Of a DNA stretch of 41,831 nt, positions 1-37,413 are shown piece by piece. The position numbers were made by a program, and so were the translations under genes. Position 1 is the stretch's first letter; every line of letters starts with the position of its first letter. The stretch lies in the NCBI GenBank assembly GCA_031264185.1, contig JAISEL010000016.1:1-41831 (forward strand). Reading direction: 5' to 3'. The stretch is from Deltaproteobacteria bacterium. Lineage in GTDB: Bacteria; Desulfobacterota; Desulfarculia; Adiutricales; Adiutricaceae. The notes beneath the pieces are model-generated. The model was not told the origin of the DNA. It saw nothing but the letters and a program-made list of their open reading frames with translations, and searched no databases.

Positions 1-219
1 TTATTGAGTTTTGTTGAACATAAATATAAAAACCAAGCTGACCGGATAAATCATACTGACGGTCTAAGTATGGAAATGACGGACTGGCGGTTTAATTTAA
101 GACCTTCCAATACTGAATCTCTTTTGCGGTTGAACTTAGAAACCAGGGGATTGAAATCAGATGTCCAAAAATATGTTTCAGAAATTGAGGAAATAATTTT
201 TCAAAACAAAATAAATTGA
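1..219 (+). CDS. Phosphomannomutase/phosphoglucomutase, C-terminal fragment (cut by window edge)
   Basis: Only the last 72 codons are inside the window; the frame is open from base 1, so the gene continues to the left. The visible part matches the C-terminal phosphate-binding domain of ManB/CpsG-type phosphohexomutases. It has the run DGLSMEMTDWRFNLRPSNTE, whose RPSNTE loop contacts the substrate phosphate, followed by LLRLNLETRG. In the family this enzyme interconverts mannose-6-phosphate and mannose-1-phosphate, the step before GDP-mannose. The next gene on the same strand encodes a GDP-mannose 3,5-epimerase, which supports the mannose reading over glucose. The fragment is too short to separate PMM from PGM by sequence alone. 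Confidence 0.8.
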   Translation, partial: LLSFVEHKYKNQADRINHTDGLSMEMTDWRFNLRPSNTESLLRLNLETRGLKSDVQKYVSEIEEIIFQNKIN

Positions 220-492
220 AATTTTTTCATTTCTGTTTCTTTTAATTTAACAAAATTTTAATATTTAGTGTTATATATATTAAATTTTTTGACTAATATC
301 AAAAAAAGGTAACCTAAAGCGACGGATTAAAATGCTCAATTGAGAGGTAAAATTTTGTATTTTACTTAAAATTATAGTATAATTTTATATATTTTATGAG
401 CTAATATTATATAAAATATTAGTCTTTTTTAACATAATTTTATTATTTATATTTTAATTTTCTTACTAACTTAACTAATTAGGATCTGAATT
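220..492. other. AT-rich intergenic gap before the epimerase gene
   Basis: No coding region is visible between the mutase stop and the epimerase start. The stretch is extremely AT-rich. A TATAAT at 378-383 could be a -10 box, but the matching -35 position (355-360, TTGTAT) is poor, and TATAAT is expected by chance in DNA of this composition. An AGGA eight bases before the ATG at 493 is a plausible ribosome binding site for the epimerase. Confidence 0.4.
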
Positions 493-1458
493 ATGAAAAC
501 AGCTTTAGTTTGCGGCGCCGGCGGCTTTATTGGCAGCCATATGGTTAACCAGTTAAAAAAAGAGGGCTTTTGGGTGCGAGGGGTTGATCTGCACTATCCC
601 CATTTTGGTCCGACTACGGCTGATGATTTCATAATCGGCGATCTCCGCGATTTTTCTGTCTGTCTCCAGTCAGTGGACCGCCACTTTGATGAGATTTACC
701 AGTTCGCAGCTGATATGGGCGGAGCCGGTTTTGTTTTCACCGGTGAAAATGACGCTGATATCATGCACAATTCAGCCACAATTAACCTCAATATGCTGGA
801 AGCGTCCTGGAGACGGAACAATAGAAGAATTTTTTATTCTTCTTCCGCCTGTATGTACCCCGAATATAATCAGGTCGATCCCAACAACCCTAACTGCGCA
901 GAGGACAGTGCCTACCCAGCTGCTCCCGACAGTGAGTACGGTTGGGAAAAACTGTTCAGCGAGAGGCTCTATCTGGCCTATCTGCGCAACAAGGACATGG
1001 ATGTCCATATTGCCAGATTCCATAACATCTTCGGACCGGAAGGCGAATGGACCGGCGGACGTGAAAAATCCCCGGCCGCTATTTGCCGCAAGGTGGCGAT
1101 GGCTAAAAGCGGGGACACTATTGAGGTCTGGGGTGACGGCAACCAGACCAGGTCTTTTTTGTATATTGATGAATGTGTTGAGGGTGTCAACCGGCTTTTA
1201 AAAGCTGATTGGCACGGACCCGTTAATATTGGTTCTGATGAAATGGTTACGATTAATCAGTTGGTTGACATTGTGGCCGGTATTGCCGGCAAACAGATAA
1301 ATAAACATCATATTCCAGGGCCGCTAGGGGTCCGCGGCCGTAACTCAGACAATAACCTGATCCAGCAAAAGCTTGGCTGGAGGCCCACCCAAACGTTGCG
1401 TTCCGGCTTGGAAAAAACTTACGTGTGGATAGAGGAGCAGGTTAAAAAGATTTCGTGA
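493..1458 (+). CDS. GDP-mannose 3,5-epimerase
   Basis: This 321-residue extended short-chain dehydrogenase/reductase has an N-terminal NAD-binding GxxGxxG (GAGGFIG, residues 8-14). It follows the plant GME pattern closely: YQFAADMGGAGF near residue 69, SSSACMYPE with Cys120, YGWEK with Tyr149 and Lys153, NIFGPEGEWTGGREKSPAA with Lys192, then WGDGNQTRSF, NIGSDEMV, HHIPGPLGVRGRNSDN and KLGW. Cys120 and Lys192 match the acid/base pair of plant GME, and Tyr149/Lys153 the SDR catalytic pair. The family converts GDP-D-mannose to GDP-L-galactose (and GDP-L-gulose) in the cytosol. It sits after a phosphomannomutase and converges with glycosyltransferase genes, so it probably supplies an L-hexose donor for a surface glycan. 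A related NDP-sugar epimerase specificity is the main alternative. Confidence 0.85.
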   Translation: MKTALVCGAGGFIGSHMVNQLKKEGFWVRGVDLHYPHFGPTTADDFIIGDLRDFSVCLQSVDRHFDEIYQFAADMGGAGFVFTGENDADIMHNSATINLNMLEASWRRNNRRIFYSSSACMYPEYNQVDPNNPNCAEDSAYPAAPDSEYGWEKLFSERLYLAYLRNKDMDVHIARFHNIFGPEGEWTGGREKSPAAICRKVAMAKSGDTIEVWGDGNQTRSFLYIDECVEGVNRLLKADWHGPVNIGSDEMVTINQLVDIVAGIAGKQINKHHIPGPLGVRGRNSDNNLIQQKLGWRPTQTLRSGLEKTYVWIEEQVKKIS

Positions 1459-1883
1459 GACATTGTTGGGTATTTATTCAGATAAAAACAAATAATTCCT
1501 AAAGACATCTTACATAAATGGAGTTACAACCATCATATTTTTATAAAACAACACATTACTTTAATTAGACAGCAATACAGTCCAATTTTATACAATAATT
1601 TTAATATTTGTTCTATTATTAGTAGTAATAAATGGACTTATAATTTTATTTTACGAAATTATCAGCATTACTAGTGTCGCAAAAGAGTCAAAGCGGAAAA
1701 TAAAAAATTATTACATCTGTTTATTTGAGATACCATCAATAGTTAATTTATATATTCCACAAAAAGCGATGTAATAATAATCTATATTTTAATGTGAAAA
1801 CTGATTAAATTATAATTTTATAAAATTAAAGTGTTTTAAAAAATTTATAAATATTTACCATCAATTTTATGACTATAAAGTTA
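1459..1883. other. AT-rich gap between convergent genes
   Basis: This 425-base stretch separates the 3' ends of the + strand epimerase and the - strand flippase. It is strongly AT-rich with stop codons in all frames. I see no gene, no convincing hairpin with a T-tract for either side, and no repeat. Its composition continues into the flippase gene. Confidence 0.5.
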
Positions 1884-3125
1884 TTAAATTGAATTTATAA
1901 ACTTATGTTTTGCCAATATAAAATTTAATCCTACAATTAACTGAATCGCACAAACAATACTTAAACAAAAAATTTGCACTAAATTTACACCATTTAATCC
2001 ATAAAAATATATAAAATAATTGATAAAACATACACATACACTAAAAGCAATGATATGAGATATTAAAATAACAAATAATTTCCGAAAAATCGTAAGAATA
2101 GTGACTAAATAGACATCTATAGCTACTAAAGAGGAAGCAATCATTGCTCCTTTTAATAGATAAGCGTGCTTTGCTATTTCTTTATTAAAAAGCCGAATAA
2201 GAATCAAGTCTCCAAATATATTAGCTAAAACATACAAAATCACACAGCAAAATATAATCATAAAAAAAATAAATAAAAATAATTTTCTAAATTGATTATA
2301 TTTTTTACTAATAAAATAATTAGCTAAGATATTAATTACAGGTGCAAATATAAAATATGAGAATACTTGAATCGCAAAAGCGGGCATCGTAACAGAATTA
2401 AATATTCCTAACGAATCAGTGCCTTCCATCAATTCAAGAGCATTTTTTGGCAGAGATAGTAAACAGGCAACTAAAATTCCTTGAAGAGCGATAGGAAAGC
2501 AAACTTTAAGCAACTGACATATCTTGTTAAAATTAAAATTAAGGTTAAATCGAGAAAGATATCTTGATTTTTTAATATCATAAAATAGAGAAAAAACTAA
2601 TGTAGAAAATGAAAAACCTAATATAGAAAAAAAAAGCCCAAATGATTGAAATATAACACTAAATGTTAAAAGAATAATAATTCCTCTGAAACCTAAAGAA
2701 AGTCCAGCATAATCTAATTTCCCATATTTTTGTTCTATACCATTAAGAACATCAATAAAAGATTCAAATCCTATAAAAAGCATAAAAGTCATAACTATTC
2801 CACGTTGATACCAAGTATCTACAAAGAATAGAGTATAACAAAAACATAGAAAAAGCGATATAATAACCGTAACAATTCTTGATGAAACATATATTCCATC
2901 AGAATATTCACTCTTTAAGTCAGAAACTTGATAGTTACGTATACTAAATGTCGCAAATACTTTAAAAATATTAGTAATGCTAATGGCAAGAGCTAAATTG
3001 CCAGCATCACTATATCCATTAGCCAGTTTAACAACAAGTATAGTTAAAATCCAAAGAGATAATAAATATACAATTGACCCACCAGAATTAAATAAAAAAG
3101 ACCTTAAAATGCTAATATTTTTCAT
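1884..3125 (-). CDS. Wzx-like polysaccharide flippase (PST/MOP superfamily membrane protein)
   Basis: This 413-residue protein is almost entirely hydrophobic, with about 12 candidate membrane segments separated by short basic loops such as DIKKSRYLSR and FISKKYNQFRK. That size and layout suit the oligosaccharide flippases that move undecaprenyl-linked glycans across the inner membrane. The ATG overlaps the stop of the upstream GT2 gene by four bases (ATGA), so the two are probably co-translated. The gene is far more AT-rich than the division genes and uses many Ile, Phe, Asn and Lys codons, which suggests recent horizontal acquisition. It is the last gene of the autotransporter/oligosaccharyltransferase run and would flip the lipid-linked glycan before transfer. 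The exact family (Wzx versus another MOP exporter) rests on topology and context, because no diagnostic motif is visible. Confidence 0.75.
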   Translation of the reverse strand: MKNISILRSFLFNSGGSIVYLLSLWILTILVVKLANGYSDAGNLALAISITNIFKVFATFSIRNYQVSDLKSEYSDGIYVSSRIVTVIISLFLCFCYTLFFVDTWYQRGIVMTFMLFIGFESFIDVLNGIEQKYGKLDYAGLSLGFRGIIILLTFSVIFQSFGLFFSILGFSFSTLVFSLFYDIKKSRYLSRFNLNFNFNKICQLLKVCFPIALQGILVACLLSLPKNALELMEGTDSLGIFNSVTMPAFAIQVFSYFIFAPVINILANYFISKKYNQFRKLFLFIFFMIIFCCVILYVLANIFGDLILIRLFNKEIAKHAYLLKGAMIASSLVAIDVYLVTILTIFRKLFVILISHIIAFSVCVCFINYFIYFYGLNGVNLVQIFCLSIVCAIQLIVGLNFILAKHKFINSI

Positions 3126-3931
3126 TCATGTGTTTTTTTATCTAATTCAGGAGACAATTTAGATCTAGATGCCAATAAATAACCAAAAAAAGCCATCATA
3201 CATTTACCTAGAACTGTAAATATCGGAAAAAAAACTTTATGGTTTTTTAAAGCTATATAATCATATTTGATACACTTTAAGTTATTCCTAATACCGCTGT
3301 TACTTTCCCCGCCAGCTATAAAAATAGTTACGGGGACAGGCACTGATTTTATGGTAAAATCAGGGTCAGTAAAGAGAGAAAGCTGAAAATTATAGTCGTA
3401 GGAGCGCTTAAAAGATTCCTCCGCCAAAGTATATTTTGCTAATGATTTGCTTGAGACTAAAAAAGTTTCAGTAGCGCACATCCAGCCCCATCTCCAGGGC
3501 AATTGTTTGCCACTCCATCGTCTTGTTACCTGCCCGTTTTTTTGAAAAATATATCCGGCGGCAACTCCGTTGCATCCACTGTCTATTATTTCTTCAGCCA
3601 GAAATTTCAGTGAATTTTCGGAAACAAAGACATTTGAAAATTGAATAAAATAGTCACCCTTAAGTATCGCAGCAGCCTTATTGTAAGCATGAGAAGCGTT
3701 CCTGTCCTCTTCCGACTTCCAAACGAACCCGTACCCTTTTTGTTTGTATTTCTCCTCATACTGTTTCAGCAGATCAGCAGAACCGTCCGTTGAAGCTCCA
3801 TCCATTATAATATGCTCAACATAAGGATAGTTCTGTTCAAGAACAGAATTCATTACTAATTTAAGCATTTTTTTGTCATTTTTGAACACAGAAAGAATAC
3901 TTATCAGAGGATAATTCATGATTATAACCAT
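3122..3931 (-). CDS. GT2 family glycosyltransferase
   Basis: The 269-residue product begins with a GT-A fold: PLISILSVFKND, the nucleotide-binding DGASTDGS at residues 44-51, and a WKSEEDRNASHAYNKAAAILKGDY segment. The last resembles the SE.D.G.YDAMNKG.....GDY region of WcaE-like GT2 enzymes. Where relatives carry the metal-binding D-x-D or DD, this protein has QFSNVF (residues 97-102), so the usual acidic pair is missing. The acceptor-side RSYDYNFQLSLF motif is present. Two starts are possible, ATG 3931 and ATG 3919; the second leaves GAGATGG about nine bases upstream and gives MNYPLISIL, which is my preference. The gene overlaps the flippase start by four bases. Its likely role is to add a sugar to a lipid-linked glycan, with donor and linkage unknown. 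Confidence 0.75.
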   Translation of the reverse strand: MVIIMNYPLISILSVFKNDKKMLKLVMNSVLEQNYPYVEHIIMDGASTDGSADLLKQYEEKYKQKGYGFVWKSEEDRNASHAYNKAAAILKGDYFIQFSNVFVSENSLKFLAEEIIDSGCNGVAAGYIFQKNGQVTRRWSGKQLPWRWGWMCATETFLVSSKSLAKYTLAEESFKRSYDYNFQLSLFTDPDFTIKSVPVPVTIFIAGGESNSGIRNNLKCIKYDYIALKNHKVFFPIFTVLGKCMMAFFGYLLASRSKLSPELDKKTHE

Positions 3932-3970
3932 CTCAACAAAAAGAACAAAGCCATTCAGTATGAGTTAACC

Positions 3971-4939
3971 CTAAATTTTATTTTGAAGCGGAGAAATTGG
4001 AACAGAATATATGTCGTTATTTAAAAAAGCCAATAGAAACTGTAAACCCAAAATAATCGGCAAGGCTGCCAACATAACTGTTCCGCTAGGAGTGGCGGAA
4101 ACCTGGCCGGCATTTTCGATCCATGTACTTAAACCAAATATAAATCCAAATAAAAATAAAATCAACCCTAGCACAAGTTCAAAACTACCTGAGGTAACAT
4201 CACGAAGAAAATAATTATAAAATATTCTTTTACACGTATTTTTAAGATGACCAGAAATAAAAGAGAATAATTCGCATGAAATTTTTAAATTACTAACCTC
4301 ATCTCTATAAATCGCTTTCATTGGAATATCCGTAACAACGGCTTTTAAAAGATTAAGGCGAAAAAGCATATCTGACTCAAAAAAATACCTTTTTGCTATT
4401 TTGTCCATCGGCAAAAGAGCAGCAACTTTTCCGCATATGGCTAAATAGCCGTTAGTCGGATCAAAGATGTTCCAATACCCGCTGGAAAGTTTGTTTACAA
4501 AAGAAATAAGGCCATTGCCGACCAAGCGGAATACAGGCATCTGAACGACATCTGATGGATTATGAAATCTATTCCCCTTGGTGTAGTCAGCCTGGCCGGA
4601 AACGATAGGTTTAGTAAAAAAAGGGGCCAGCTCCGGGTCCATTTGGCCGTCACCGTCAATTTTCACCAAAATATCGGCCCCATCTTCCAGAGCTTGTCTG
4701 AAGCCGGTCATAACCGCTCCGCCAACTCCCAGATTAGTTGGAGTCTTTAATACCACTAGCCGAGGGTCCGAACAATTATCTTTAGCCAACTGGCCGCTTA
4801 GTTCAGGACAACAATCATCGACTACATAAATCTTCCAAAAAAGAGGTCCCATCCTCTCAAGTAAAGATAAAATATGTTTTTTTACCTTGTAACAAGGGAT
4901 AATTGCCGCCACTTTTTGGTGTTCAGGAAGATCATTCAA
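3971..4939 (-). CDS. GT2 glycosyltransferase of the polyprenyl-phosphate (DPM1/GtrB-like) type
   Basis: The start is placed at TTG 4939. This TTG shares the TTGA overlap with the upstream oligosaccharyltransferase stop and has GGGAGG seven bases before it; a longer reading from TTG 4954 lacks that support. The 322-residue product has VAAIIPCYK, the nucleotide-binding VDDCCP (residues 40-45), NLGVGGAVMTGFRQAL and the metal-binding DGDGQM (95-100), all typical of the dolichol-phosphate-mannose synthase branch of GT2. FDPTNGY and the RYFFESDML region follow, then two hydrophobic segments near the C terminus. Family members attach a sugar to polyprenyl phosphate at the cytosolic membrane face or extend a lipid-linked glycan. 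Translational coupling to the transferase gene suggests it builds or decorates the same donor. Confidence 0.8.
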   Translation of the reverse strand: MNDLPEHQKVAAIIPCYKVKKHILSLLERMGPLFWKIYVVDDCCPELSGQLAKDNCSDPRLVVLKTPTNLGVGGAVMTGFRQALEDGADILVKIDGDGQMDPELAPFFTKPIVSGQADYTKGNRFHNPSDVVQMPVFRLVGNGLISFVNKLSSGYWNIFDPTNGYLAICGKVAALLPMDKIAKRYFFESDMLFRLNLLKAVVTDIPMKAIYRDEVSNLKISCELFSFISGHLKNTCKRIFYNYFLRDVTSGSFELVLGLILFLFGFIFGLSTWIENAGQVSATPSGTVMLAALPIILGLQFLLAFLNNDIYSVPISPLQNKI

Positions 4940-7131
4940 GGCAAAACCTCCCAAATGCCGCCAGCTTGATAATTTACTTTAACCAGTTTGAAATTAGGCA
5001 ATTCCGGTCCGCCTGGAAGCAGAAGATAAAGCGGCAAAGAAACAAGGCCAAATTGATCAACAATAAAAGTTGTGCTGTAAGCTGAGTTATAAACAATATA
5101 TGGGCCTGGAAGGTTCAAAACAGTCCAAGGAGGACCACTGATAGGGGTCACTGCCGCATCTATCGCGCTGCCGATACTGGTTTGACCGCGATTTATCACG
5201 CTTTGAGCTAAAGTCACATTTCCGGTTTCTTTATTGTGCTGAAACTCATTGCGGCTAATCTCACTGAAATGCATGCGAACCAAGTTACTATCGGCCGGTC
5301 TTGAGTTCCCCATGGCTATCCACCAAGCGGAAATACCAAAAATATCTTTAGGGAAAAAGACAAAAACTCTGCCTTCAGGGAAAAGCCAAGTATGACCACC
5401 GGGAAGACGGGCCAAATCAGCCTCAAGGTTGCCTGAATAAGTTGCTCCTGGCCGAAGGCTGCCATTGGGTTCTAGCGCCAGGAAAAACCTCTCCAGTACA
5501 GCATAAGCCTGCTCCTTGCCCCAGATTTTTTCTAAAGGTTCCAGACCATTTAATCCTCGGCGGGAAAAGAACCTCATCCATCTGGCAGCAGCTACCCGGT
5601 CAAGCATCAACCACGGACGAGCGGCGGCATAGGTCGTATCCGGATTCTGGGAACCGCCGTCAAAAAAAGCCGACTGCCCGGACCTGGCCATAATAAAGTA
5701 CCCGTCATCCCACCAATTGCAGAATGAAGCTCCTTTGATTCCCGATTCCCTGAAAGGGGAAAAGAGTTCATCATGAAGCTTGTTCCATCGAAGCGGGAAA
5801 GAGTGGTGTCCTGTCCACCAGGCACAGCTCAGGATAACTACGATTATCGCCGGAACAGCCAGTATTGATAACCGAGGAACTTTAGCCCAAAATGTGCTCA
5901 GGCTAAAGGTATCAGATATGCGTCCAAAAACAGGCGGAGGAGGAACAGCAATCTTCAGCTTAGAGGTAAATTTGACGAATTTATCGGAAATAAAATCCAA
6001 AGTTTTCGGGAGCAAGGCCACAGATATGGCCAGAGAGAAGCAGCCTATGTGAATCAGCCTTTGGGAGCTCAGTCCGGCAAACAGGAAACACAATCCCAGA
6101 ACCAAAGGCATTCTAAATTTAGGGTGGGCAAAAAAAGCGCCTGCCGCCGAAATAAGGATGATAACTCCTGATACCTTAAATCCGCCTATACGGGCTACCA
6201 AGTCAGGAAAACTGATTGGAGCTAACTCCTGTATTGAAGTGAAAAAAAAGTGCCTTTCAACACCAAAGACCATGGCTCCTTTAGATCTGATTTCCAGAGC
6301 CAGGGAAGTAGGGAACGGTACATACTGCTCAGGCAAAAAAACAATTAAGGCAAACCAAATAACAGCTATGGTTACCAAGGCCGGAAAAGCCTTATACCGC
6401 CAGAGCGGTTTCCAGGGAGTCGCAAACATAAGCCAGTAGCCTAAAGTTATGACGCCTCCAAGAAAAATTCCTGAATTCCAAAACCAAACTAAAAATATAA
6501 AGGCTATGAATGCCAGCCCAAAATCTTTCAACCGGGTTTTAAAACTGCGGCTTAAATCAGCAGCCAGAGTTAGAGCAAAAATCTCCAGCTGCCAAAAAAA
6601 TACTATAGCCGGGTCTGTATCGAACCAGACAGGGCCGGTCCGCTGGACCCAGGGCGGCATAATGGAAAGAATAATGCAGGCTAGAATGGATAATGAGAAA
6701 CTGGCCTCTAGCCTTATGAACCAGGCCCTTATAAGAAGAGCAAAGCCGACAGTAAAAACAAGATTGGCATAAAAGACCGTATTCTCCATGGAGGCTTGGG
6801 TAATAAACCTGAGAATCACGGCCAGTACGGACAGGGCAGGAGTAGAGAGAGACAATCCCTCAGAAACCGCTTTGGAAGCCTGGCTCAGAAAAAAATACCC
6901 GTCCGCTCCGACAATCATCGGAGTGCCGGAATCAGCATAGTGCCAATTAGCCGGCCAGGTAAACCAAGGGTTCCCCTGAAGAACCACCGGAACGCAGATC
7001 GAAAAAGCGACCGCTAATAATGAAACCAGAACGCATAGGGAAGAGCGGCCTATCTCAGGCCAGTAAGGCCGGATCTTTCTGGATAGTCTGAGCAGAATAT
7101 CAGCCGCCATGCGGGCTTTTACAGATGTCAT
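4936..7131 (-). CDS. STT3/PglB-family oligosaccharyltransferase
   Basis: The 731-residue product has about 12-13 hydrophobic segments and then a soluble C-terminal domain, the size of bacterial PglB (about 713). STT3 landmarks appear in order: first-loop GADGYFF with Asp77; RTGPVWFDTD with Asp171 and Asp173; the external-loop motif SIQE with Glu302; SSQR with Arg358; and the signature WWDDG at 473-477 (WWDYG in PglB). It then continues SAFFDGG like the DVKTLVDGG segment of PglB. The family transfers a glycan from a polyprenyl-pyrophosphate carrier to Asn in N-X-S/T on the periplasmic side. By hand alignment Arg314 sits where C. lari PglB has Arg331, the residue that favours an acidic -2 position. 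The gene follows the autotransporter by 64 bases, with a terminator-like hairpin between. The start is uncertain, since the ribosome binding site is weak and Met8 is an alternative. Confidence 0.9.
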   Translation of the reverse strand: MTSVKARMAADILLRLSRKIRPYWPEIGRSSLCVLVSLLAVAFSICVPVVLQGNPWFTWPANWHYADSGTPMIVGADGYFFLSQASKAVSEGLSLSTPALSVLAVILRFITQASMENTVFYANLVFTVGFALLIRAWFIRLEASFSLSILACIILSIMPPWVQRTGPVWFDTDPAIVFFWQLEIFALTLAADLSRSFKTRLKDFGLAFIAFIFLVWFWNSGIFLGGVITLGYWLMFATPWKPLWRYKAFPALVTIAVIWFALIVFLPEQYVPFPTSLALEIRSKGAMVFGVERHFFFTSIQELAPISFPDLVARIGGFKVSGVIILISAAGAFFAHPKFRMPLVLGLCFLFAGLSSQRLIHIGCFSLAISVALLPKTLDFISDKFVKFTSKLKIAVPPPPVFGRISDTFSLSTFWAKVPRLSILAVPAIIVVILSCAWWTGHHSFPLRWNKLHDELFSPFRESGIKGASFCNWWDDGYFIMARSGQSAFFDGGSQNPDTTYAAARPWLMLDRVAAARWMRFFSRRGLNGLEPLEKIWGKEQAYAVLERFFLALEPNGSLRPGATYSGNLEADLARLPGGHTWLFPEGRVFVFFPKDIFGISAWWIAMGNSRPADSNLVRMHFSEISRNEFQHNKETGNVTLAQSVINRGQTSIGSAIDAAVTPISGPPWTVLNLPGPYIVYNSAYSTTFIVDQFGLVSLPLYLLLPGGPELPNFKLVKVNYQAGGIWEVLP

Positions 7132-7147
7132 GTCCCTGTCAAAAATA

Positions 7148-7173
7148 ACGGAGGGGATATATATCCCCTCCGT
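7148..7173 (-). terminator. Intrinsic terminator or attenuator between autotransporter and oligosaccharyltransferase
   Basis: A perfect 26-base inverted repeat has arms ACGGAGGGG and CCCCTCCGT around ATATATAT. On the transcribed strand it is followed at once by TATTTTT. It lies 22 bases after the autotransporter stop and 16 bases before the transferase ATG. The form is that of a rho-independent terminator. Because the downstream genes have no other clear promoter, partial read-through would give much more acceptor than transferase. Confidence 0.75.
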
Positions 7174-7195
7174 CTAGGTTATGGAAAGATTAGGA

Positions 7196-10100
7196 TTAGA
7201 ATTCGAAGCCTATGCCGAGCGAAGCTTTATGATCGTAGTAGTCTGAGGCGACATCAAGATCGTAGTTGGCAAAGACATCGACCGTGTCATTGATCTTAAC
7301 TTTTAAGCCGGCGCCGACCTGGAAGGTGCTGCGGGGCGGGGTTATGCCCCAAATCGGCATAGTGCCTCTGTAGCCGACAAAACCCACATTAACTTTGTTG
7401 TCAAGCTCTTTAGCCGTATAGGTCCAGCCAAGACGCAGTTCCGGGGTGATTTTAGCGTCACCGGCATCAATGGTGGTGTTGATTTTTACCTGAAGAGGTA
7501 TATCAACTAAGTCGTCATTATAACCGTCAAAATAGTTAAGCACACGATTGACATTTGAATGTTCTCTCCAGCCGTCCTGTTTCATATGCAAATAACGGAC
7601 TCCTATGGAGGGAGTAATTTCAAAATTGCCGGCCTGCAGAATCCAGCCGCCCCTGATTCCGAACTGCCAGGAATCAATGTCAAAGGAACCGGACTTACGG
7701 CCTAAAACAGGCACATTAACTGTAGAATCATTGTCAGCAGTGGAGTACGCAACTGTACCGTCAAGGAAGAGACCGTTGTCGAACTTATAGCTGCCGTAGA
7801 TGCCTAAACTGAACGTATCAGTGTCAATCTTGCCCATATCATGGTTTACTTTGATTTCGCCGAAGGAGAAGGCCATGGATGCGCCAAGGACCAGTCCGGG
7901 AACTCCGTCGAAGGTCCGATCATAACCCAGAGCGAATCCGCCGGCATCATACTTGTAACCGGCTACATCATCGTCATCATCCTGCTTGGACCAGGATCCG
8001 AACCCGCCGATCCAGGCCCGGTTCAATAACCCTTCACCGGCGGCCGGAGGAGTATTAAGATCTGCGGTATGAATCTTGTCCAACCGGCCAAGAACAACCG
8101 AGTTAGCCTTGAATATGGTGGTCGCTACGGCGTTTCTGACATTTACAGTGGCTTCGCCAATGCTCTGCCTTAAAATATATTCAACGAGATCAGAATAGCC
8201 GTGATTGGCGGCATAGTAGCCTCCATAAACTAAATATCCAGCTAAAGCACCCATGGCTTTAAAATCAGGATCAGTCGAAACCAAACTGTCGTTGTAAAGC
8301 CGATCAAGTAAATTCGCTGCGCTAGCGAAATTTCTGGTGTAATCGAATCCGGATTTACTGATCGCTCCGGTAAAACCAACATATGAGTTTACAACAGCCT
8401 GGCCAGCTGGATTAACGGTAATATCAAAGAATGGACTTTCAAATTTGGAATTAGGAGTAACATTATCAACAGTTCCATTGATGATTGTAGCTCCCACAAA
8501 ATTACTCATATTGGCAGCTGTAATGTTGCCGTCATTAAACATGACCTCAACCGTACCGTTATAATCTACGTCAGCTTCAAGCTGGCCAAGGTCAGCGGAG
8601 GAAGTCCCCAGAAGGTTAAGGAAGGAACCGTCATTCAAAAATACGCCTTGACCAACCTCAAGAATATTATTTTGACCGATGTTCAAGCCGCTGTCGTCAC
8701 CTACCCGGATACTACCGTTAATAAAGTTCCGGCTGCCGGGAATTCCGGAACCGAAAGCTGATATTTCGCTGCCGCCGGAAAGAATAAAGCCGCTGTTGGA
8801 CGGATCATCGAAATCAACAAAAGAATTAGAAGTCAGAATGATTTCGGTATCTTCTCCTGAAGCGGTAACGGATGAAGAGCCGGTAACCGGATTGGTGATG
8901 TTGAACCCGGTGTTACCCATGGTGACTGTGCCATTGGTAAAAGCCACGCTGCCGTTGTCTACATATACATAAGCGCCTGCTAAATTAACAAAATCGGCGC
9001 TGCTGGCAATTCTGCCATTATTTACACTGACAAAGCCCCGGAGCGTGTTATTGGAGTTTTGAGACATTACCAAAGAAATATTCTCTAGGAATATATTGTC
9101 AATGGTATTATTGCCGCCTCTCAGAGAAAGAGAACCGTCTGACTCTGTAGGCGCCACGTTCAACAAATTAGCAATATAGTTTTCGCCATTGCTGATAACA
9201 ATATTAGTCCTATCAGCATCTATTAAGGACAGACTATTCGTGCCACCGGAAATTTCAATGGAGCCGTTAGTATTTTCTACAGTATTAGTAACATTAACTT
9301 TTGAACTGTCCCCGGTAATTAGCAGGTTGCCGTTAGTTCCGGTCAAAATGTCAGCAACAGTAACAGTACTCCCATCAATCACCACGCTGCCATTGCTGGT
9401 GCCGGTAGTGATGACTCCATTAGAGCCAGCGAAATTAACAACAGAACCGTTAATCGCAATGTCGCCGGAAGCTGTCTCAATAAAGGCAGAAGTCCCAGTT
9501 AAATTCAAAGCGCTGTTATCAACTACAACTCCGCTGCTGGCGCTTATGTTGCCGCTGACATTAAAGTCAGCTTCGTTTATGATGGAAAGCGCCCCGTTTT
9601 CGGCAGTTAAAGCGCCGACTGAGCCCTTAGTGCCATCAATTGATACGGAATTATTGGCGAACAGCTGAGTGTTGGCAGCAATAAGGCTACCGCCGACAAT
9701 GGCTAAATCGCCGCCAGTGGCGTTGATCCACGCCGAAGCTCCAGTCATATTTAAGGTAGTGTTGGTAAAAGAAACATCCGTGGCTGCTAAAATATCGCCG
9801 CTTACATTTAAATTCGATTCAGTAATGCTAACATAAGTACTATTGGCAGTTAAATTGCCAACAGCGCCCACTGTGTTATCAATTTCTACAGACTGATTGC
9901 CGTACAGCTGAGTGTCGGTGCCAATAAGGGTACCGCCTGTAATGGATAAAGCGCCGTTAGTTGCGTTAATCCAAGAAGAAGGGACAGTCATATTTAAGGT
10001 GGTTCCGCTTAAAGCAACGCTAGTGTTCGCGACAATATTTCCGGTTAAGTTCAAATTCGAACCGGAAATAGCAACACCAGCTTTATCGGCAGTTAAATTG

Positions 10101-11899
10101 CCGACAGAACCATTGGTGTCATCAATTGCTATAGAATTATTGCTGTAAAACTGAGTGTCGGCTGCAATAAGTGTACTGCCGACAATGGTTAAATCGCCGT
10201 TAGTTGCGTTGATCCACGAAGAAGCGCCACTCATATTTAATGAAGTGCCAGCAATAACAACATCGGTGGCCGCAGTAATATTGCCGCTTACATTCAAATT
10301 CGAGCTAATCAGGTCAACATAACCATTTTCGCCAATGATATCAACGAAAGAACCGTTAACATTATCATAATCTACGCTTGTGTTAGCGTAAACAGTCCAG
10401 TTTGAATTTGTTTCGGCAGCAAACCTAGTGTTAGCAATTCGCACAGAATCACTCGTTGAATTAATAATACCAGCTGAACCAGTACCAGTTAAATTCAGCA
10501 AACCTACATCTTCTATATTAATAGAAGTGTTTGCCAGTATGCCATAGCCGGAAGCAGCTGAGACAGGTGTAAGGTTTAAGACATTAACACCGGAAATGTT
10601 TACAGACCCATTGACTGACTGAATAAGTTCCGTGCTTACATTTCCTGATACGATGCTAATATTGCCTTCGTTAGCAGTGATATTACCTGAAAGATTAATA
10701 TTGGAGCCGGAAATATTAATGTCGCCCGCAGCAGTTTGAATGTTGGTGCCATTAACCCTGACCGCATCCTCAATAGTTACATAGGTTCCGGCTGTAATAT
10801 TGCCGGTAAGATTTGTCTGGCCGCCGGTAATTTGAATGCTTTGGTTAGCTTCAATGAACGCGCCTGTAACGTTGTCGCCGGACAGGATGACGCTTCCGTT
10901 GGAAGAATTAATTCCAGCATCACCGAGAATTACATTGCTGGTGACTATTTCTACAGTTAGGTTGGCATTTATCCCCTCACCAGCAGCGCCAGTAGCATTA
11001 ATATTGCTGCCTGTGATTGATATGCCTTCCTCCAGAGCGGTCAGATTACCGGTAACATTTGAGCTATCAATAGTAAGACTTCCATTGGCAATAATATAAC
11101 CATCAGTAGCATTGACCAGACTATTAGCTAAAATGTCAATATTGCCTTCAGTGGAATTAATGTTAGCGGCAGTTACATTGCTGCTGCCAATCGTAATGGT
11201 CTTATTCGCAGTAATATTACCGGTAGCGTTAACGTTACTTCTGTCAGTAATATTCAGACGTCCTTCTGTGACATCTATGGAGTCAGCGACAACAGTAGTT
11301 GCGTTATTTATAATAACTGACTGATTGCCGGAAATATTTCCTGAATCGGAACCTGTTAAATTTACCAAGCTGCCATTGTCCAAAATAACGGAACCTTCAG
11401 TACTGACCAATTGGGATATGTTTCCGTCCGAGGCAGTGATTGTTCCGTTTGACAGGATAATATCGCCAGTCACAGTAATATTTAACCCTGTGCCTGAGCC
11501 ACTTTCAGAAACATTCAATTTACTGTCGGTTATAATAAAGTTTCCGCCAGCAGTTATAAGGCCACCATCTTCAGAAGTGCCTGCATTCTGTGTGGTGTTT
11601 ATGTTAATAGTTGAATTTCCCTGAATAACAATATTGTCTACTGCTGTTATGTTTGATAAATTTCCCATTGCAGTATTGTTAAGGGAAATATTACTACCAG
11701 CGGATATGTTACCGCCATCCATATCAGCTAAAACTGTACCGGAACCATCAGCATCTGTTCCATCTACAGTAACATTAGTGCCATTATAAAGTCCACCCCA
11801 GGCCACTCCATTGCCCAAAAACAGAAGGGCCCCTAAAACCATTGCCAGCGAGGCGGACACCAAAGTCAGGCCGCCCCACGTTTTCTGCCTATGTTCCAT
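7196..11899 (-). CDS. Sequon-rich type V autotransporter with C-terminal beta-barrel
   Basis: This 1567-residue surface protein starts with a signal peptide (basic MEHRQK, a hydrophobic core to about residue 33, likely cleavage near AWG). Residues from about 36 to 1150 form a low-complexity passenger rich in Asn, Gly, Ser and Thr, with recurring GNITA/GSNLNLSG units that suggest a beta-helix. It includes three 81-residue tandem repeats at 533-775. I count about 89 N-X-S/T sequons there, eight with Asp or Glu at -2. Residues from about 1285 to the end are an autotransporter beta-domain with alternating aromatic strands, ending in SLGIGFEF with the usual terminal Phe. The ATG has AAGGAG ten bases upstream. 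The likely role is adhesion or a surface layer; no protease or enzyme motif was seen. The oligosaccharyltransferase directly downstream makes the passenger a candidate N-glycoprotein. Confidence 0.9.
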   Translation of the reverse strand: MEHRQKTWGGLTLVSASLAMVLGALLFLGNGVAWGGLYNGTNVTVDGTDADGSGTVLADMDGGNISAGSNISLNNTAMGNLSNITAVDNIVIQGNSTININTTQNAGTSEDGGLITAGGNFIITDSKLNVSESGSGTGLNITVTGDIILSNGTITASDGNISQLVSTEGSVILDNGSLVNLTGSDSGNISGNQSVIINNATTVVADSIDVTEGRLNITDRSNVNATGNITANKTITIGSSNVTAANINSTEGNIDILANSLVNATDGYIIANGSLTIDSSNVTGNLTALEEGISITGSNINATGAAGEGINANLTVEIVTSNVILGDAGINSSNGSVILSGDNVTGAFIEANQSIQITGGQTNLTGNITAGTYVTIEDAVRVNGTNIQTAAGDINISGSNINLSGNITANEGNISIVSGNVSTELIQSVNGSVNISGVNVLNLTPVSAASGYGILANTSINIEDVGLLNLTGTGSAGIINSTSDSVRIANTRFAAETNSNWTVYANTSVDYDNVNGSFVDIIGENGYVDLISSNLNVSGNITAATDVVIAGTSLNMSGASSWINATNGDLTIVGSTLIAADTQFYSNNSIAIDDTNGSVGNLTADKAGVAISGSNLNLTGNIVANTSVALSGTTLNMTVPSSWINATNGALSITGGTLIGTDTQLYGNQSVEIDNTVGAVGNLTANSTYVSITESNLNVSGDILAATDVSFTNTTLNMTGASAWINATGGDLAIVGGSLIAANTQLFANNSVSIDGTKGSVGALTAENGALSIINEADFNVSGNISASSGVVVDNSALNLTGTSAFIETASGDIAINGSVVNFAGSNGVITTGTSNGSVVIDGSTVTVADILTGTNGNLLITGDSSKVNVTNTVENTNGSIEISGGTNSLSLIDADRTNIVISNGENYIANLLNVAPTESDGSLSLRGGNNTIDNIFLENISLVMSQNSNNTLRGFVSVNNGRIASSADFVNLAGAYVYVDNGSVAFTNGTVTMGNTGFNITNPVTGSSSVTASGEDTEIILTSNSFVDFDDPSNSGFILSGGSEISAFGSGIPGSRNFINGSIRVGDDSGLNIGQNNILEVGQGVFLNDGSFLNLLGTSSADLGQLEADVDYNGTVEVMFNDGNITAANMSNFVGATIINGTVDNVTPNSKFESPFFDITVNPAGQAVVNSYVGFTGAISKSGFDYTRNFASAANLLDRLYNDSLVSTDPDFKAMGALAGYLVYGGYYAANHGYSDLVEYILRQSIGEATVNVRNAVATTIFKANSVVLGRLDKIHTADLNTPPAAGEGLLNRAWIGGFGSWSKQDDDDDVAGYKYDAGGFALGYDRTFDGVPGLVLGASMAFSFGEIKVNHDMGKIDTDTFSLGIYGSYKFDNGLFLDGTVAYSTADNDSTVNVPVLGRKSGSFDIDSWQFGIRGGWILQAGNFEITPSIGVRYLHMKQDGWREHSNVNRVLNYFDGYNDDLVDIPLQVKINTTIDAGDAKITPELRLGWTYTAKELDNKVNVGFVGYRGTMPIWGITPPRSTFQVGAGLKVKINDTVDVFANYDLDVASDYYDHKASLGIGFEF
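9575..10303 (-). repeat. Three tandem 243-base repeats inside the autotransporter passenger
   Basis: Units run 10303-10061, 10060-9818 and 9817-9575 with no gaps. Each encodes 81 residues beginning SNLNVSG or SNLNLTG, and each contains a WINAT motif about 30 residues in and a GSLIAA/GTLIGT-TQL segment near residue 45. A diverged partial fourth copy starts at about 9570 (ADFNVSGNIS). Every unit carries several N-X-S/T sites in matching positions. The in-frame spacing indicates expansion by duplication of a beta-helix block. Confidence 0.9.
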
Positions 11900-11997
11900 A
11901 AATCCGTAACTCCTTGTTGTACATCAGGGGCCCTGCAAAAAAACCGTTTCCCTCAGTCGAACCCCGTAATTGTTAAGTTAAAAGCCTAAAAACTATA

Positions 11998-12026
11998 ATT
12001 TTAACTCTCAAACACTTAAAAACCAA
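11998..12026 (-). promoter_or_regulatory. Candidate promoter for the autotransporter run
   Basis: On the - strand TTGGTT (12026-12021) and TAAAAT (12003-11998) are separated by 17 bases. The -10 matches the consensus at five of six positions and the -35 at only three. Transcription from here would leave a leader of roughly 90 bases before the AAGGAG and ATG. The surrounding DNA is AT-rich, so chance matches are likely. Confidence 0.3.
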
Positions 12027-12371
12027 GATAATCACCAAATTTTTTATTATTTTATACTATTTATTTTTCACCTCCATCGAATTTCTGTTTAAAGCTTGCC
12101 AAATTAGTAAAGATTCTTAACACTGCCAGTAATTAAAACCCGCCCCAAAAAATAAAACTCGCAGATCCAGGGTCCCTCACCCTTGATCCGACTTAAAACA
12201 GATATAATTAGCAATTTTTTTGAAAAAAAATAAGGCAAATAAAATCAAGAGCTATCTTATTCCCAATCTTTAACCCGGATTACTGCTGTAAACCCCGATC
12301 AGCTCCTAACCGGACAGCAAAATAACTCAAAGAGCCTAAAACCCTTAATATCCGCCAGGTTAAATCACCGC

Positions 12372-12650
12372 TCACTCTTCCTTTCGGATAAAACCCCAAA
12401 GCTCACGCATTTCCTTGGCCACTTTAGCACCAACTTCGGGCCGTGTCAATTAAAAACAGTTTCTCTCCCAAAAAAATTCCGTCTTTCCCTTTCTTCTGGC
12501 CGCGAAAGCAAAAAGCCAAATATAAAGGTTCAACCGGCATGGTTCAATGAAAAAAAGACTCCGGAAAACTGCCATTACTTCCGGACAATTTTAAATCAGG
12601 ACTTACCCCGGCTCTCTTTCACCCGGAAGGCTACAAAAAACAAAATTTAA
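12372..12650 (-). pseudogene. Possible decayed gene remnant, family not recognised
   Basis: Conceptual translation of the - strand gives protein-like segments that jump frames. In order they are SPDLKLSGSNGSFPESFFH, then after a stop MPVEPLYLAFCFRGQKKGKD continuing into GIFLGEKLFLIDTAR, then a one-base shift into PEVGAKVAKEMRELWGFIRK and a TGA at 12372. The last segment looks like a normal amphipathic C terminus, and the join at ...DTAR/PEV is seamless apart from the frame change. I infer a gene broken by at least one frameshift and one stop. I do not recognise the family, and chance open frames remain possible at this length. Confidence 0.35.
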
Positions 12651-13119
12651 GAAATTATATCCGTCTAATACTGCCTTGTCAACAGCTCAAAAGACAAAAT
12701 CCAGAGAATAAATAAATTCAGCGTTATTTTTCTAAAATTATTTTAGTTTATTTTTATCTATGGTAAAAATATTGAGCTTTTCCTAACTGTTCCGGCTCTG
12801 AAACGAGCTGACCGAAAAATTATCCCGGACAAAACCTGTCTTTTGATTACTGACTGCCAGGGACTGAGAACCGGAAAAAAATGACTTATTAAATATTATG
12901 ATTTCAACATCCTTCATCGGCAAAAAACAGGAGATTCTTTAAAAAATTCCCCTGCTGAGAGGCAAATTCAGGTCATCTGAGTCCAATCCTTGGGTGTTTA
13001 CGGCAGCCTTCAGCGCAGATTGCTAAGATTACACTCCCAATTAGCATAATTTACCTGACTATGAACTCAGGCTCTATACAGCTGAATTTTCTTCCTGATC
13101 ATAGTAGACTAAAAGGAAA

Positions 13120-14337
13120 TTAATGTAAAGACTTTTTTTCGAACCGTTCCATAATTTTACCTGCTTCCAGCCGGGCCCTTTTATCGGCCTCAAGAACTCC
13201 TTCCATTGTCGAGACCCTATCTATCGGCAGAATATTCAGGCACTCTTCAACCACCGGTATTATCTGAACAAAAGGAATCCGACCGGTTAAAAACCCCCGG
13301 ACCGCCTCTTCATTGGCCCCGTTCATAATGGCCGGAGCTGTCCCTCCCCGGCGGCCGGCCTCTTCGGCCAGGGCCAGGCCCCGGAAGAACTTCCGGTCCG
13401 GCTCGGCAAAGGTCAGGCTGCTTAAAGTTAAATCCAGAGCCTCAATCCCCAGAGGACTGCGGCATCCCTTTGGGCCGGCTACCGGCCATCTTGCGGGATG
13501 GCTTAAGCTGTAAGCCAAAGACAGGCGCATGTCGGCCGGACCTAGTTGAGCCAGCTGAGAGCCGTCGACAAACTCGACCAAAGAATGAACCGCGCTCTGG
13601 GGGTGAACCAGGACCTCAATAAGATCGTAAGGGATCCCGAAAAGATGATGAGCCTCTATGACTTCCAGACCCTTGTTCATTAAAGTGGCGCTGTCGCAGC
13701 TTATTTTAGGCCCCATGGACCATCTGGGATGGTTTAGGGCCATTTCCCTGGTTACGCATCTGAGCTGTTCTGCGGTCCAGCCTAAAAAAGGACCGCCTGA
13801 GGCAGTTAAAATAAGCCTTCTGATTCCCTGGCCGGTCAGTTTTCCGCCCAAAGCCTGGAAAACGGCCGAGTGCTCGCTGTCCGCCGGCGAAATTTGACTG
13901 ATCATAGGCCGGATAAGCTCTCCGGCCAAAACCAGGCTTTCCTTATTGGCCAGAGCGACCTTAAGCCCGGCCTTAAGGGCGGCCCAGGTCGGCTTCAGCC
14001 CGGCCGCTCCGGCCATGGCCGAAAGAACTGCAGCCGCTCCGCTATGGGCAGCTACGGATGCGGCTCCCGCCTCCCCTGACAGGATCTCCGGAAAGTTTTC
14101 TTTTCTGAGGCCTCTGGCTTTTAAAAGAGCCGCCAGTTTTCCGGCCTCATCCGGACCCAGAACCGAAACCGCTTTTGGCTTAAAACGGATTACGGATCCG
14201 GCCAGAGGCTCCAGGCTGGCGGCCGCCGCCAGACCAACTATCTCTATATGCTCAGGAAAAGCCTCAGCCAGACTCAGGGCCTGACGTCCGACGGAACCGG
14301 TTGAGCCTAATACGGCCAGTTTTATAGGATCAGTCAT
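13120..14337 (-). CDS. dxr: 1-deoxy-D-xylulose 5-phosphate reductoisomerase
   Basis: This 405-residue enzyme converts DXP to MEP using NADPH and a divalent metal, the committed step of the non-mevalonate isoprenoid pathway. The pathway ultimately supplies the undecaprenyl carrier used by the wall and glycan genes in this window. Visible landmarks are the NADPH-binding GSTGSVG (residues 11-17), ALANKESLVLAG, TASGGPF, the long active-site block NHPRWSMGPKISCDSATLMNKGLE, LVHPQSAVHSLVE and the C-terminal GANEEAV. The length is normal. In many proteobacteria dxr sits beside cdsA, as here, but uppS, frr and rseP are absent from this neighbourhood. It follows cdsA by 137 bases, which contain no obvious terminator. 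Confidence 0.95.
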   Translation of the reverse strand: MTDPIKLAVLGSTGSVGRQALSLAEAFPEHIEIVGLAAAASLEPLAGSVIRFKPKAVSVLGPDEAGKLAALLKARGLRKENFPEILSGEAGAASVAAHSGAAAVLSAMAGAAGLKPTWAALKAGLKVALANKESLVLAGELIRPMISQISPADSEHSAVFQALGGKLTGQGIRRLILTASGGPFLGWTAEQLRCVTREMALNHPRWSMGPKISCDSATLMNKGLEVIEAHHLFGIPYDLIEVLVHPQSAVHSLVEFVDGSQLAQLGPADMRLSLAYSLSHPARWPVAGPKGCRSPLGIEALDLTLSSLTFAEPDRKFFRGLALAEEAGRRGGTAPAIMNGANEEAVRGFLTGRIPFVQIIPVVEECLNILPIDRVSTMEGVLEADKRARLEAGKIMERFEKKSLH

Positions 14338-14474
14338 GCTTAAAATCTTTTATTCTTAAAACCGACAGCTCTTTAAACAATCGGAGGCCGGACCGGCTGA
14401 TCCTGACCTCCAGTAAACTAAAAACCTGACCTAAATTATATGTCCGCCTGTCCGGCCTGTCCTGTTCGGAAAAC

Positions 14475-15311
14475 TTAAGGGGACATCTGGAAATTTATGT
14501 AAAAATAGACCACCGGCAGGTTGAACAGCAGGGAATCCAGCCGGTCCCAGACTCCGCCGTGGCCCAGTAATATAGATGAGGTGTCCTTAAGGCCCATGGC
14601 TCTTTTCAAAGCTGACTCAAAAAGGTCCCCGAAGGACCCCCATAAGGCCAGGACCAGGCTTAAGACCGCAATGGAAGACCGGGAAAACTCCGGCGGCAGG
14701 TAGGAAAACGACAGGGCTCCGGCAATGACGGCGGTCAGACACCCGCCGAACAGGCCGGAAATTGTTTTATTCGGGCTGACTTTGGGAAAGAGCCTGGGGC
14801 CTTTAAGATAGGACCCGATATAGTAGGCCCCGGTATCGGTCAGACAGGTGACTGAAATGGCATAAAACAGCCACCTGCTGCCGAAATATTCCTGCTTAAT
14901 CAAAAAGATGAAGGAGAGCAGAAAACTTAAATAAAAATGGCCCAGCGCGTACCGGGAAATAAGATTGACCGCCGCCCGGTCTTCCTTTTCCGGGAGAACG
15001 GCCATTAAGTAGAGAGCCCCCAGACCTAAGGACAAGGCCAGACCCAGACCCTGGCCCTGGGGGCCGAAAAGAAGAGCCCCAGCCCCGGTGGCCAGCCAGC
15101 CCAGAACAGCCAAACTAAGAAGCCCCAGCCGCTCCCGGCCCAGCAGATTGACGCTGAACTCCCACCAGCAGACAGCCCCCAGAACGCCGACCACCCCCAG
15201 AATGACCAGATTATTGTCCATAAAAATAGCCAATAAAGTCGGGGGGATCAAGATAAGCGCTATCAGCCACCGGCTGAGCTGCCCTTTGGTTACGCGTTCT
15301 CCCAAACTCAC
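14475..15311 (-). CDS. cdsA: Phosphatidate cytidylyltransferase (CDP-diglyceride synthase)
   Basis: The 278-residue membrane protein carries the CdsA signature near the C terminus (SALKRAMGLKDTSSILLGHG followed by GVWDRLDS), plus the preceding LTDTGAYYIGSYLKGPRLFPKVSPNKT segment. About eight hydrophobic segments fill the rest. It makes CDP-diacylglycerol from phosphatidic acid and CTP at the inner membrane, the precursor of phosphatidylethanolamine, phosphatidylglycerol and cardiolipin. The start is GTG at 15311, with CAGGAG seven bases before it. It lies between an unknown gene and dxr on the same strand. Confidence 0.95.
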   Translation of the reverse strand: MSLGERVTKGQLSRWLIALILIPPTLLAIFMDNNLVILGVVGVLGAVCWWEFSVNLLGRERLGLLSLAVLGWLATGAGALLFGPQGQGLGLALSLGLGALYLMAVLPEKEDRAAVNLISRYALGHFYLSFLLSFIFLIKQEYFGSRWLFYAISVTCLTDTGAYYIGSYLKGPRLFPKVSPNKTISGLFGGCLTAVIAGALSFSYLPPEFSRSSIAVLSLVLALWGSFGDLFESALKRAMGLKDTSSILLGHGGVWDRLDSLLFNLPVVYFYINFQMSP

Positions 15312-21707: not shown

Positions 21708-21807
21708 ATTATCCCGCCTTAAAGCCGATTTTGAAATTTATCAGTTAATTAATCACTATTACAAAATAAAAGAGGACAGCATTATCAGCCAGAAGGCAGC
21801 CCCGGCC

Positions 21808-23040: not shown

Positions 23041-23123
23041 GATATATCCCGCTCCTTTAACTCAAAGCTGACCAAAAAGTCCCTGAAACCCCAGATCAGG
23101 CCAGAACAATCGGCAACAGTATT

Positions 23124-23142
23124 TCAGCCGCTTTGCGGCTGA
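23124..23142 (-). promoter_or_regulatory. Hairpin in the presumed ftsA leader
   Basis: A perfect inverted repeat TCAGCCGC-TTT-GCGGCTGA (eight-base arms, three-base loop) lies about 85 bases before the ftsA start. It is not followed by a T-tract on the - strand, so it is not a standard terminator. A leader stem-loop affecting stability or translation, or a protein site, is possible. Confidence 0.45.
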
Positions 23143-23250
23143 GGATCTAATCCAATGGATGTATAAGCAAATTCAGCTGTAATTTCTACGTCAGATACAG
23201 TTTTTAAAAAACTAAACGCTTACTTTTGAGTATTTTTATATATACCGCAA

Positions 23251-23259
23251 ATTATATCA
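23251..23259 (-). promoter_or_regulatory. Extended -10 promoter element upstream of ftsA
   Basis: The - strand reads TGATATAAT, a perfect extended -10 (TG-N-TATAAT). No good -35 is seen at the usual distance, which extended -10 promoters can tolerate. It would give a leader of about 200 bases containing the hairpin. The AT-rich background lowers certainty. Confidence 0.4.
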
Positions 23260-23560
23260 ATTAGAAGGCAATAATTAGAAATTCCGTATTGACTGGTGCT
23301 TAAAAATTTTTGCCCGGAATTGATTTTACTCTTAAAACCTAATTTTTCCTAACTTTCCCCCATAAACCTTTCAGCCCGGTAATTTATGACCCCGAATTAA
23401 CTTCTTCATTCCCATTCCGGCCCAGGAAACGAAATTTCTATAATTTTCGGCTCTCAATCAGTATTTCAGCCATTATTAAAGGCGGCTTAAAGTTTACTTT
23501 TATTTCTTATCATATAATTTTAAATTTTACCACTCTTTTTTTACTATTCTTAGTGACCCT

Positions 23561-25544: not shown

Positions 25545-25552
25545 TTCCGGCC

Positions 25553-26947: not shown

Positions 26948-26955
26948 GCCCTGAC

Positions 26956-31740: not shown

Positions 31741-31758
31741 TTCAGTCTCCGCCCTGCC

Positions 31759-36878: not shown

Positions 36879-36917
36879 GATGTCTCCGAAACTTTCAGAA
36901 TTAAATGATGCTGCCGG

Positions 36918-37385: not shown

Positions 37386-37413
37386 TTATGCCTCATATAT
37401 TAATTAAAAGCAA

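Follow-up and report, generated by a model that had tools for sequence, protein, structure and literature searches.

A conserved pairing of sequon-rich autotransporters with a predicted PglB/STT3-type oligosaccharyltransferase in a genus of the Adiutricaceae

The 41,831-nucleotide stretch of DNA analysed in this study (the window) makes up all of contig C95 in the 4.4-Mb draft genome (G000) of a deltaproteobacterium of the Adiutricaceae. We take this lineage for Adiutrix-like gut bacteria, and the insect gut is the probable source. Five open reading frames (ORFs), all on the minus strand, encode an autotransporter rich in N-X-S/T sequons, an STT3/PglB-type protein (P0002), a family 2 glycosyltransferase (GT2; P0003), a second GT2 and a flippase (Table 1). 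A prediction made earlier from the sequence alone (the original prediction) had located these genes and the WWDDG motif of P0002 correctly, and had proposed that they form a self-contained N-glycosylation cassette for the autotransporter. We found that the enrichment in sequons is genuine, applies to Asn-X-Ser/Thr specifically and is limited to a few autotransporters, and that the first three genes are conserved as a unit. Taken together, sequence comparison and structural models make it likely that the passengers of such autotransporters are N-glycosylated in the periplasm, from a lipid-linked donor and before outer-membrane translocation, by the adjoining PglB/STT3-type enzyme.

Sequon enrichment of the autotransporter passengers

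Of the sequons, 89 lie in the passenger, as far as residue 1146, and 4 beyond it in the linker and the barrel, exactly as counted by hand in the original prediction. Shuffling of the passenger (n = 5000, composition preserved) gave an expectation of 35.8 ± 5.0 and a maximum of 53, and the suspicion that the density might equal that of shuffled sequence was not borne out. Ser or Thr follows at +2 of the passenger Asn in 89 cases, compared with 36 at −2 and 38 at +4; it is found at +2 of 56% of Asn, versus 29% of Asp and 17% of Ser. When the cassette autotransporters were pooled, the counts were 270 at +2, 116 at −2 and 101 at +4, while pooled non-enriched autotransporters had 487 at +2 and 532 at −2. 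The strand alternation of a beta-solenoid was considered as the cause of the sequons; alternating inward and outward residues would enrich both sides of Asn, and since only +2 is high, this cause was ruled out.

An acidic residue at −2, the feature of Campylobacter-type sequons, is not preferred. It occurs in 8 of the 89 sequons of the window passenger and in 13 of 270 over the cassette autotransporters, where 23 were expected. An avoidance of overlapping sequons was also considered as a steric signature. It appeared striking against simple density, but under the proper conditional expectation it was not significant in the cassette autotransporters (0 vs 1.45) and only modest in the other rich ones (1 vs 6.7, p 0.005), and we give it no weight.

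The protein shows features of a type Va autotransporter, with a C-terminal PF03797 barrel and an aromatic terminus (GFEF). Its N-terminus is hydrophobic (residues ~9-35) and passes a simple signal-peptide heuristic only. The AlphaFold2 model of the passenger is all-beta and repetitive (mean predicted local distance difference test, pLDDT, 80.6), as is expected of a beta-helical passenger, and a fold search against the PDB gave no significant match, the best being EtpA (E 5e-3).

In a sample covering 18% of the own genome (772 kb), which contained 364 ORFs of 200 aa or more, the highest z, 12.0, belonged to the cassette autotransporter. The next was another autotransporter on contig C105 (z 4.6), and all others had a z of 3.3 or less. 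The remaining proteins with a signal peptide, as called by a simple heuristic, held 212 sequons, where 218.5 were expected, and all other proteins held 500 against 490. As other exported proteins are at expectation, there is no general drift of the secretome. The C105 autotransporter (L015:6811-10341, z ~5) is unlinked to the cassette, and the gene after it (L015:3870-5813) reads like a large acyltransferase.

Across the relatives, a z of at least 4 was found in 12 of the 27 autotransporters of this genus and in 0 of 38 from other genera (Fisher p 4e-6, which is only indicative as the autotransporter rows are related). The rich autotransporters fall into two distinct lineages of the barrel tree, and non-rich ones from other genera branch between these. 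With 12 sequon-rich members in the genus, the STT3-like enzyme probably serves several autotransporter paralogues. The view of the cassette autotransporter as the exclusive acceptor is not supported, as further autotransporters encoded elsewhere in these genomes are sequon-rich too.

The orthologues of the cassette autotransporter in G004 and G006 have z values of 11.2 and 10.6. Passenger lengths differ among the orthologues, and the density stays at 7.5-8.6 sequons per 100 residues. The passengers of G000, G004 and G006 are 38-46% identical and the barrels 70-78%. In these passengers, sequon Asn was kept in 59% of comparisons versus 47% for other Asn, and sequon Ser/Thr in 67% versus 47% for other Ser/Thr. 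The corresponding site of G001, beside dxr, holds a fragment with 42 sequons in 352 aa, where 13.5 ± 2.9 were expected. Judged from these sequences, selection looks to act on the density of sequons while individual sites turn over.

The adjoining enzyme and the conserved three-gene unit

By its sequence and its AlphaFold2 model (mean pLDDT 81.2), P0002 is a predicted PglB-fold oligosaccharyltransferase with the catalytic residues kept. The model has a GT-C membrane fold and a C-terminal periplasmic domain matching PglB. It aligned best with Campylobacter lari PglB (6GXC; Z 28.6, 580 residues, 3.9 Å), followed by human, yeast and archaeal STT3, and Foldseek matched it to 5OGL with an E of 3.1e-17. 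P0002 alone gave no PDB sequence match; a family profile of P0002 and its aligned relatives matched C. lari PglB (5OGL) at 1.8e-67. This profile takes in other deltaproteobacterial STT3-like proteins, which are possibly closer to PglB, and therefore the structure is the more independent test. PF02516 had no match in the own genome or in 37 genomes of the family, and no relatives of the enzyme were found in viral contigs.

In the 14-row alignment, D77, D171, T172, D173, E302, W474, D475 and G477 are invariant, and R358 and W473 are conserved in at least 90%. The family profile aligns the segments holding D77, D171, D173 and E302 with PglB. These residues presumably provide the catalytic acids of the external loops (Asp of DGY, the DxD motif and Glu of SIxE), a matching that we take from the profile alignment and from the established catalytic residues of PglB. 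The sequon-binding motif WWDxG is present as W473 W474 D475 D476 G477.

Three congeners, the window genome, G004 and G006, share the conserved order autotransporter-STT3-GT2 at one chromosomal site. On the autotransporter side, dxr is found in the window and in G006, and contig C260 of G004 links dxr to the start of the autotransporter. On the other side, G004 and G006 have nrdG. The window genome carries this gene on a different contig (C75), and its first GT2 is followed instead by the second GT2, the flippase and an epimerase. The orthologues of the first GT2 beside STT3 in G004 and G006 are 72-75% identical. The second GT2 is absent from the loci L012 and L013, neither it nor the flippase adjoins the cassette in G004 or G006, and in these two the first GT2 alone follows STT3. 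A conserved cassette of five genes was thus ruled out, and the conserved unit is therefore three genes. The neighbourhood foreseen in the original prediction was confirmed for these three, with the second GT2 and the flippase falling outside. The term "self-contained" finds no support, as the second GT2 and the flippase are not conserved with the unit and the full lipid-linked oligosaccharide pathway is not present, and the linked set of glycan-assembly genes with an ABC flippase that marks the Campylobacter type is missing from the unit. On the contig of G006 that carries the cassette, a surface-glycan locus ~20 kb away has a GT2-flippase pair resembling the one in the window (judged by N-terminal sequence, not aligned). 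In 20 neighbourhoods of STT3 genes from distant relatives, inspected as ORF lists only, no autotransporters were recognised.

Regarding the donor, the nearest solved structure to P0003 is Dol-P-Man synthase (5MLZ), with ArnC also matched (E 4.5e-4), and the protein combines a GT2 domain with hydrophobic C-terminal segments. Against the AglJ model TIGR04182 it scored 45.6 bits, far from the cut-off of 325. In several distant relatives, too, STT3 genes have GT2 genes beside them or nearby. This proximity, together with the likeness of P0003 to Dol-P-Man synthase and AglJ, favours a polyprenyl-phosphate sugar, and we have moderate confidence that the donor, or its first step, would be such a sugar made by the adjoining GT2. 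In Haloferax, AglJ puts the first sugar on dolichol phosphate and AglB is the oligosaccharyltransferase (PMC3871713).

The STT3-like gene begins 64 bp after the autotransporter gene and overlaps the first GT2 gene by 19 bp. A hairpin in the 64-bp gap is conserved in three species (the window, L012:3424-3500 and L013:11155-11232), and in G004 and G006 it carries one compensatory change from C-G to A-T on both stem sides. We presume that it is probably an attenuator, by which more acceptor than enzyme would be made. An Rfam search of window positions 1-14500 gave no match.

Proposed route and alternative explanations

In the proposed route, the adjoining GT2 would charge polyprenyl phosphate with a sugar and so make or start the lipid-linked donor. 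The passenger would be unfolded in the periplasm between Sec export and barrel-mediated translocation, and we infer that it could be densely N-glycosylated by the STT3/PglB-type enzyme at this stage. The enzyme would accept plain N-X-S/T and may also modify the second autotransporter lineage encoded elsewhere, and the passenger would then be displayed as a sugar-coated beta-solenoid. It is also conceivable, although we hold this only tentatively, that a minimal cassette needs no more than one PglB-fold enzyme and one polyprenyl-phosphate sugar synthase, and that the attenuator-limited enzyme would transfer ~90 single sugars from a monophosphate donor to the co-encoded autotransporter in the periplasm. 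If true, it would make the first case of a lipid-linked oligosaccharyltransferase system that serves autotransporters specifically, and would show a monophosphate donor at work in a bacterium.

Several findings weigh against periplasmic glycosylation by the adjoining enzyme. P0002 is only ~15% identical to PglB and alone reaches no Pfam or NCBIfam cut-off (PF21436 gave 17.3 bits against a cut-off of 23), and a terminator-like hairpin stands between the acceptor and enzyme genes. Moreover, sequon-rich autotransporters (z 4.6-10.2) occur in G001, G002 and G003, and STT3 was not found in these genomes; a search for a divergent STT3 with the 14-row profile in these three and in G005 also gave none. 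The completeness of the three drafts is 80, 83 and 93%, and their contigs end inside the cassette autotransporter (G001), 981 bp past dxr (G002) and inside dxr (G003), where the repetitive passenger probably breaks the assemblies. Because the contigs end at the cassette site, the absence of STT3 there is unproven, but three losses by chance are not very likely. Of the refuting conditions set in the original prediction, the comparisons with shuffled sequence and with autotransporters of genomes without STT3 mostly favoured it, as did the conservation of the neighbourhood. G029 has a 39%-identical STT3, with no autotransporter beside it in the stretch that was read, yet 0 of the 15 autotransporters tested in this genome were enriched, so sequon richness cannot be read off from the presence of STT3 by itself. 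In G029 (C3, ~39-65 kb), at least six autotransporter genes stand in a tight run, and those tested show no sequon enrichment.

Among the other explanations, a general N-glycosylation system, formed by STT3 and its GT2 and lying beside the autotransporter by coincidence, is unlikely. The unlinked C105 autotransporter is enriched as well and many distant relatives have a GT2 beside or near STT3 with no autotransporters nearby, as such a system would have it, but the selection is confined to autotransporters, other exported proteins being unenriched, and the linkage is kept in three species. We regard it as improbable that the richness is structural, with the Asn, Thr and Ser ladders of a solenoid happening to read N-X-T and no glycosylation taking place. 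A beta-solenoid rich in Asn, Ser and Thr is indeed predicted for the passenger, and any motif is multiplied by repeats; nevertheless, alternation would raise −2 and +4 along with +2, the 38 autotransporters of related genera are without enrichment, and two separate barrel lineages are enriched within one genus. There is similarly little likelihood that a cytoplasmic HMW1C-type N-glycosyltransferase (NGT) encoded elsewhere modifies the sequons while the neighbouring STT3 acts on something else. NGT enzymes do modify autotransporter adhesins with 75 and 95 sequons (PMC5303269), and the sequon-rich autotransporters of congeners where STT3 was not found would fit, but the conserved autotransporter-STT3-GT2 neighbourhood would be left unexplained. 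PF18254 (HMW1C) had no match in 37 genomes of the family, and the control had none either, which deprives this negative of weight.

Within the periplasmic route, the second GT2, the flippase and other glycan genes might instead make a pyrophosphate-linked oligosaccharide that serves as donor in place of a polyprenyl-monophosphate sugar; we consider this the lesser, though a serious, possibility. PglB uses pyrophosphate-linked oligosaccharides. In the window, the second GT2 directly adjoins the flippase, and the two are probably transcribed together (a ~40-bp gap after the first GT2, then a 4-bp overlap of the two genes), but neither adjoins the cassette in G004 and G006.

Relation to known systems and surrounding features

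The Pgl system of Campylobacter is a general one that acts on many periplasmic substrates and has a complete locus for glycan assembly. Unlike the unit described here, this locus holds no acceptor gene, and its PglB is ~15% identical to P0002. The single-subunit fold and the catalytic residues are common to P0002 and the PglB enzymes of Campylobacter and Desulfovibrio, and the relaxed −2 position is shared with Desulfovibrio, whose PglBs show no acid preference there (PMC4894442).

The adhesins with 75 and 95 sequons mentioned above are autotransporters of A. pleuropneumoniae, whose cytoplasmic NGT has no other known native substrates (PMC5303269). They resemble the present acceptor in being dense in N-X-S/T sequons, whereas that enzyme is cytoplasmic and HMW1C-like and the one here is a membrane enzyme of PglB fold encoded beside the acceptor. 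The statement in the original prediction that HMW1C-type N-glycosylation is known on two-partner adhesins was therefore incomplete. The passengers of AIDA-I, TibA and Ag43 are heavily glycosylated, as is predicted here, but with O-linked heptose added in the cytoplasm (PMC3068309). Genes of PglL-type O-oligosaccharyltransferases adjoin pilin genes (PMC3643930), and thus a lipid-linked oligosaccharyltransferase gene also stands next to its acceptor gene in that case; the linkage to oxygen, the unrelated enzyme family and the pilin acceptors are different. Haloferax likewise has an AglJ/Dol-P-Man-synthase-like GT2 with an STT3-family enzyme and a surface-protein acceptor (PMC3871713), but that system is archaeal, modifies the S-layer and uses several further glycosyltransferases, and the GT2 here is far below the AglJ cut-off.

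No report of an autotransporter paired with a PglB/STT3 enzyme was found in the open-access literature, the scope of the search. Within it, sequon-rich autotransporters as N-glycosylation substrates are already known and their pairing with a PglB/STT3-type enzyme appears to be new. Adhesin N-glycosylation is known by a cytoplasmic route and PglB-type glycosylation by a general periplasmic one; a PglB-type enzyme genetically tied to autotransporters, and seemingly selective for them, would join both, which suggests a dedicated periplasmic route for sugar-coating surface adhesins. It raises the question of how a heavily glycosylated passenger passes the outer membrane through its barrel. For glycoengineering, the pair would offer a predicted, naturally relaxed N-X-S/T oligosaccharyltransferase and a natural high-density acceptor.

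Table 1. Features of the locus in the window and of the similar gene pair in the other glycan locus (L184)
Feature	Position	Strand	Evidence
Sequon-rich autotransporter, 1567 aa, predicted acceptor	7196..11899	-	PF03797 barrel, E 4.3e-50; 93 sequons, 89 in passenger
Passenger domain, residues 36-1180, predicted beta-solenoid, 89 sequons	8360..11794	-	Shuffle test; AlphaFold2 model of residues 30-680
Outer-membrane beta-barrel (translocator) domain	7259..8017	-	PF03797, residues 1295-1547, E 4.3e-50
Intrinsic-terminator-like hairpin between autotransporter and STT3 genes	7147..7174	-	12-bp stem plus T-run; −22 kcal/mol, z −6.9
STT3/PglB-type oligosaccharyltransferase (predicted), 731 aa	4936..7131	-	Model Z 28.6 to C. 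lari PglB; family profile; catalytic residues
WWDDG motif, residues 473-477 of the STT3-like protein	5701..5715	-	Translation; alignment of 14 homologues
First GT2 (P0003), Dol-P-Man synthase/AglJ type, C-terminal membrane segments	3971..4954	-	Nearest solved structure 5MLZ, E 2.1e-12
Second GT2, accessory	3122..3931	-	Not adjoining the cassette in G004 or G006
Wzx-like flippase, accessory	1884..3125	-	PF01943, 16.8 bits, below cut-off
Sigma-70-type promoter-like site upstream of the autotransporter	12654..12682	-	TTGACA-17-TATAAT, 12/12; consensus match only
Similar second GT2, other glycan locus	L184:12968-13762		N-terminal sequence
Similar flippase, other glycan locus	L184:13762-15006		N-terminal sequence

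The perfect sigma-70 consensus lies ~750 bp upstream of the autotransporter start, and a long leader is therefore implied. Positions 1-4000 of the window, which hold the epimerase, the flippase and the second GT2, have a low GC content (0.26-0.36), and from 13 kb on it is mostly 0.53-0.62. The low-GC part resembles a distinct block of glycan genes attached behind the cassette. Farther along the window, cell-division and cell-wall genes (FtsZ, FtsQ, Mur ligase) stand beside dxr and a CTP-transferase gene on the minus strand (20226-37400), and an ORF with AAA-ATPase-like and PDDEXK_9 domains is found on the plus strand (40462-41718).

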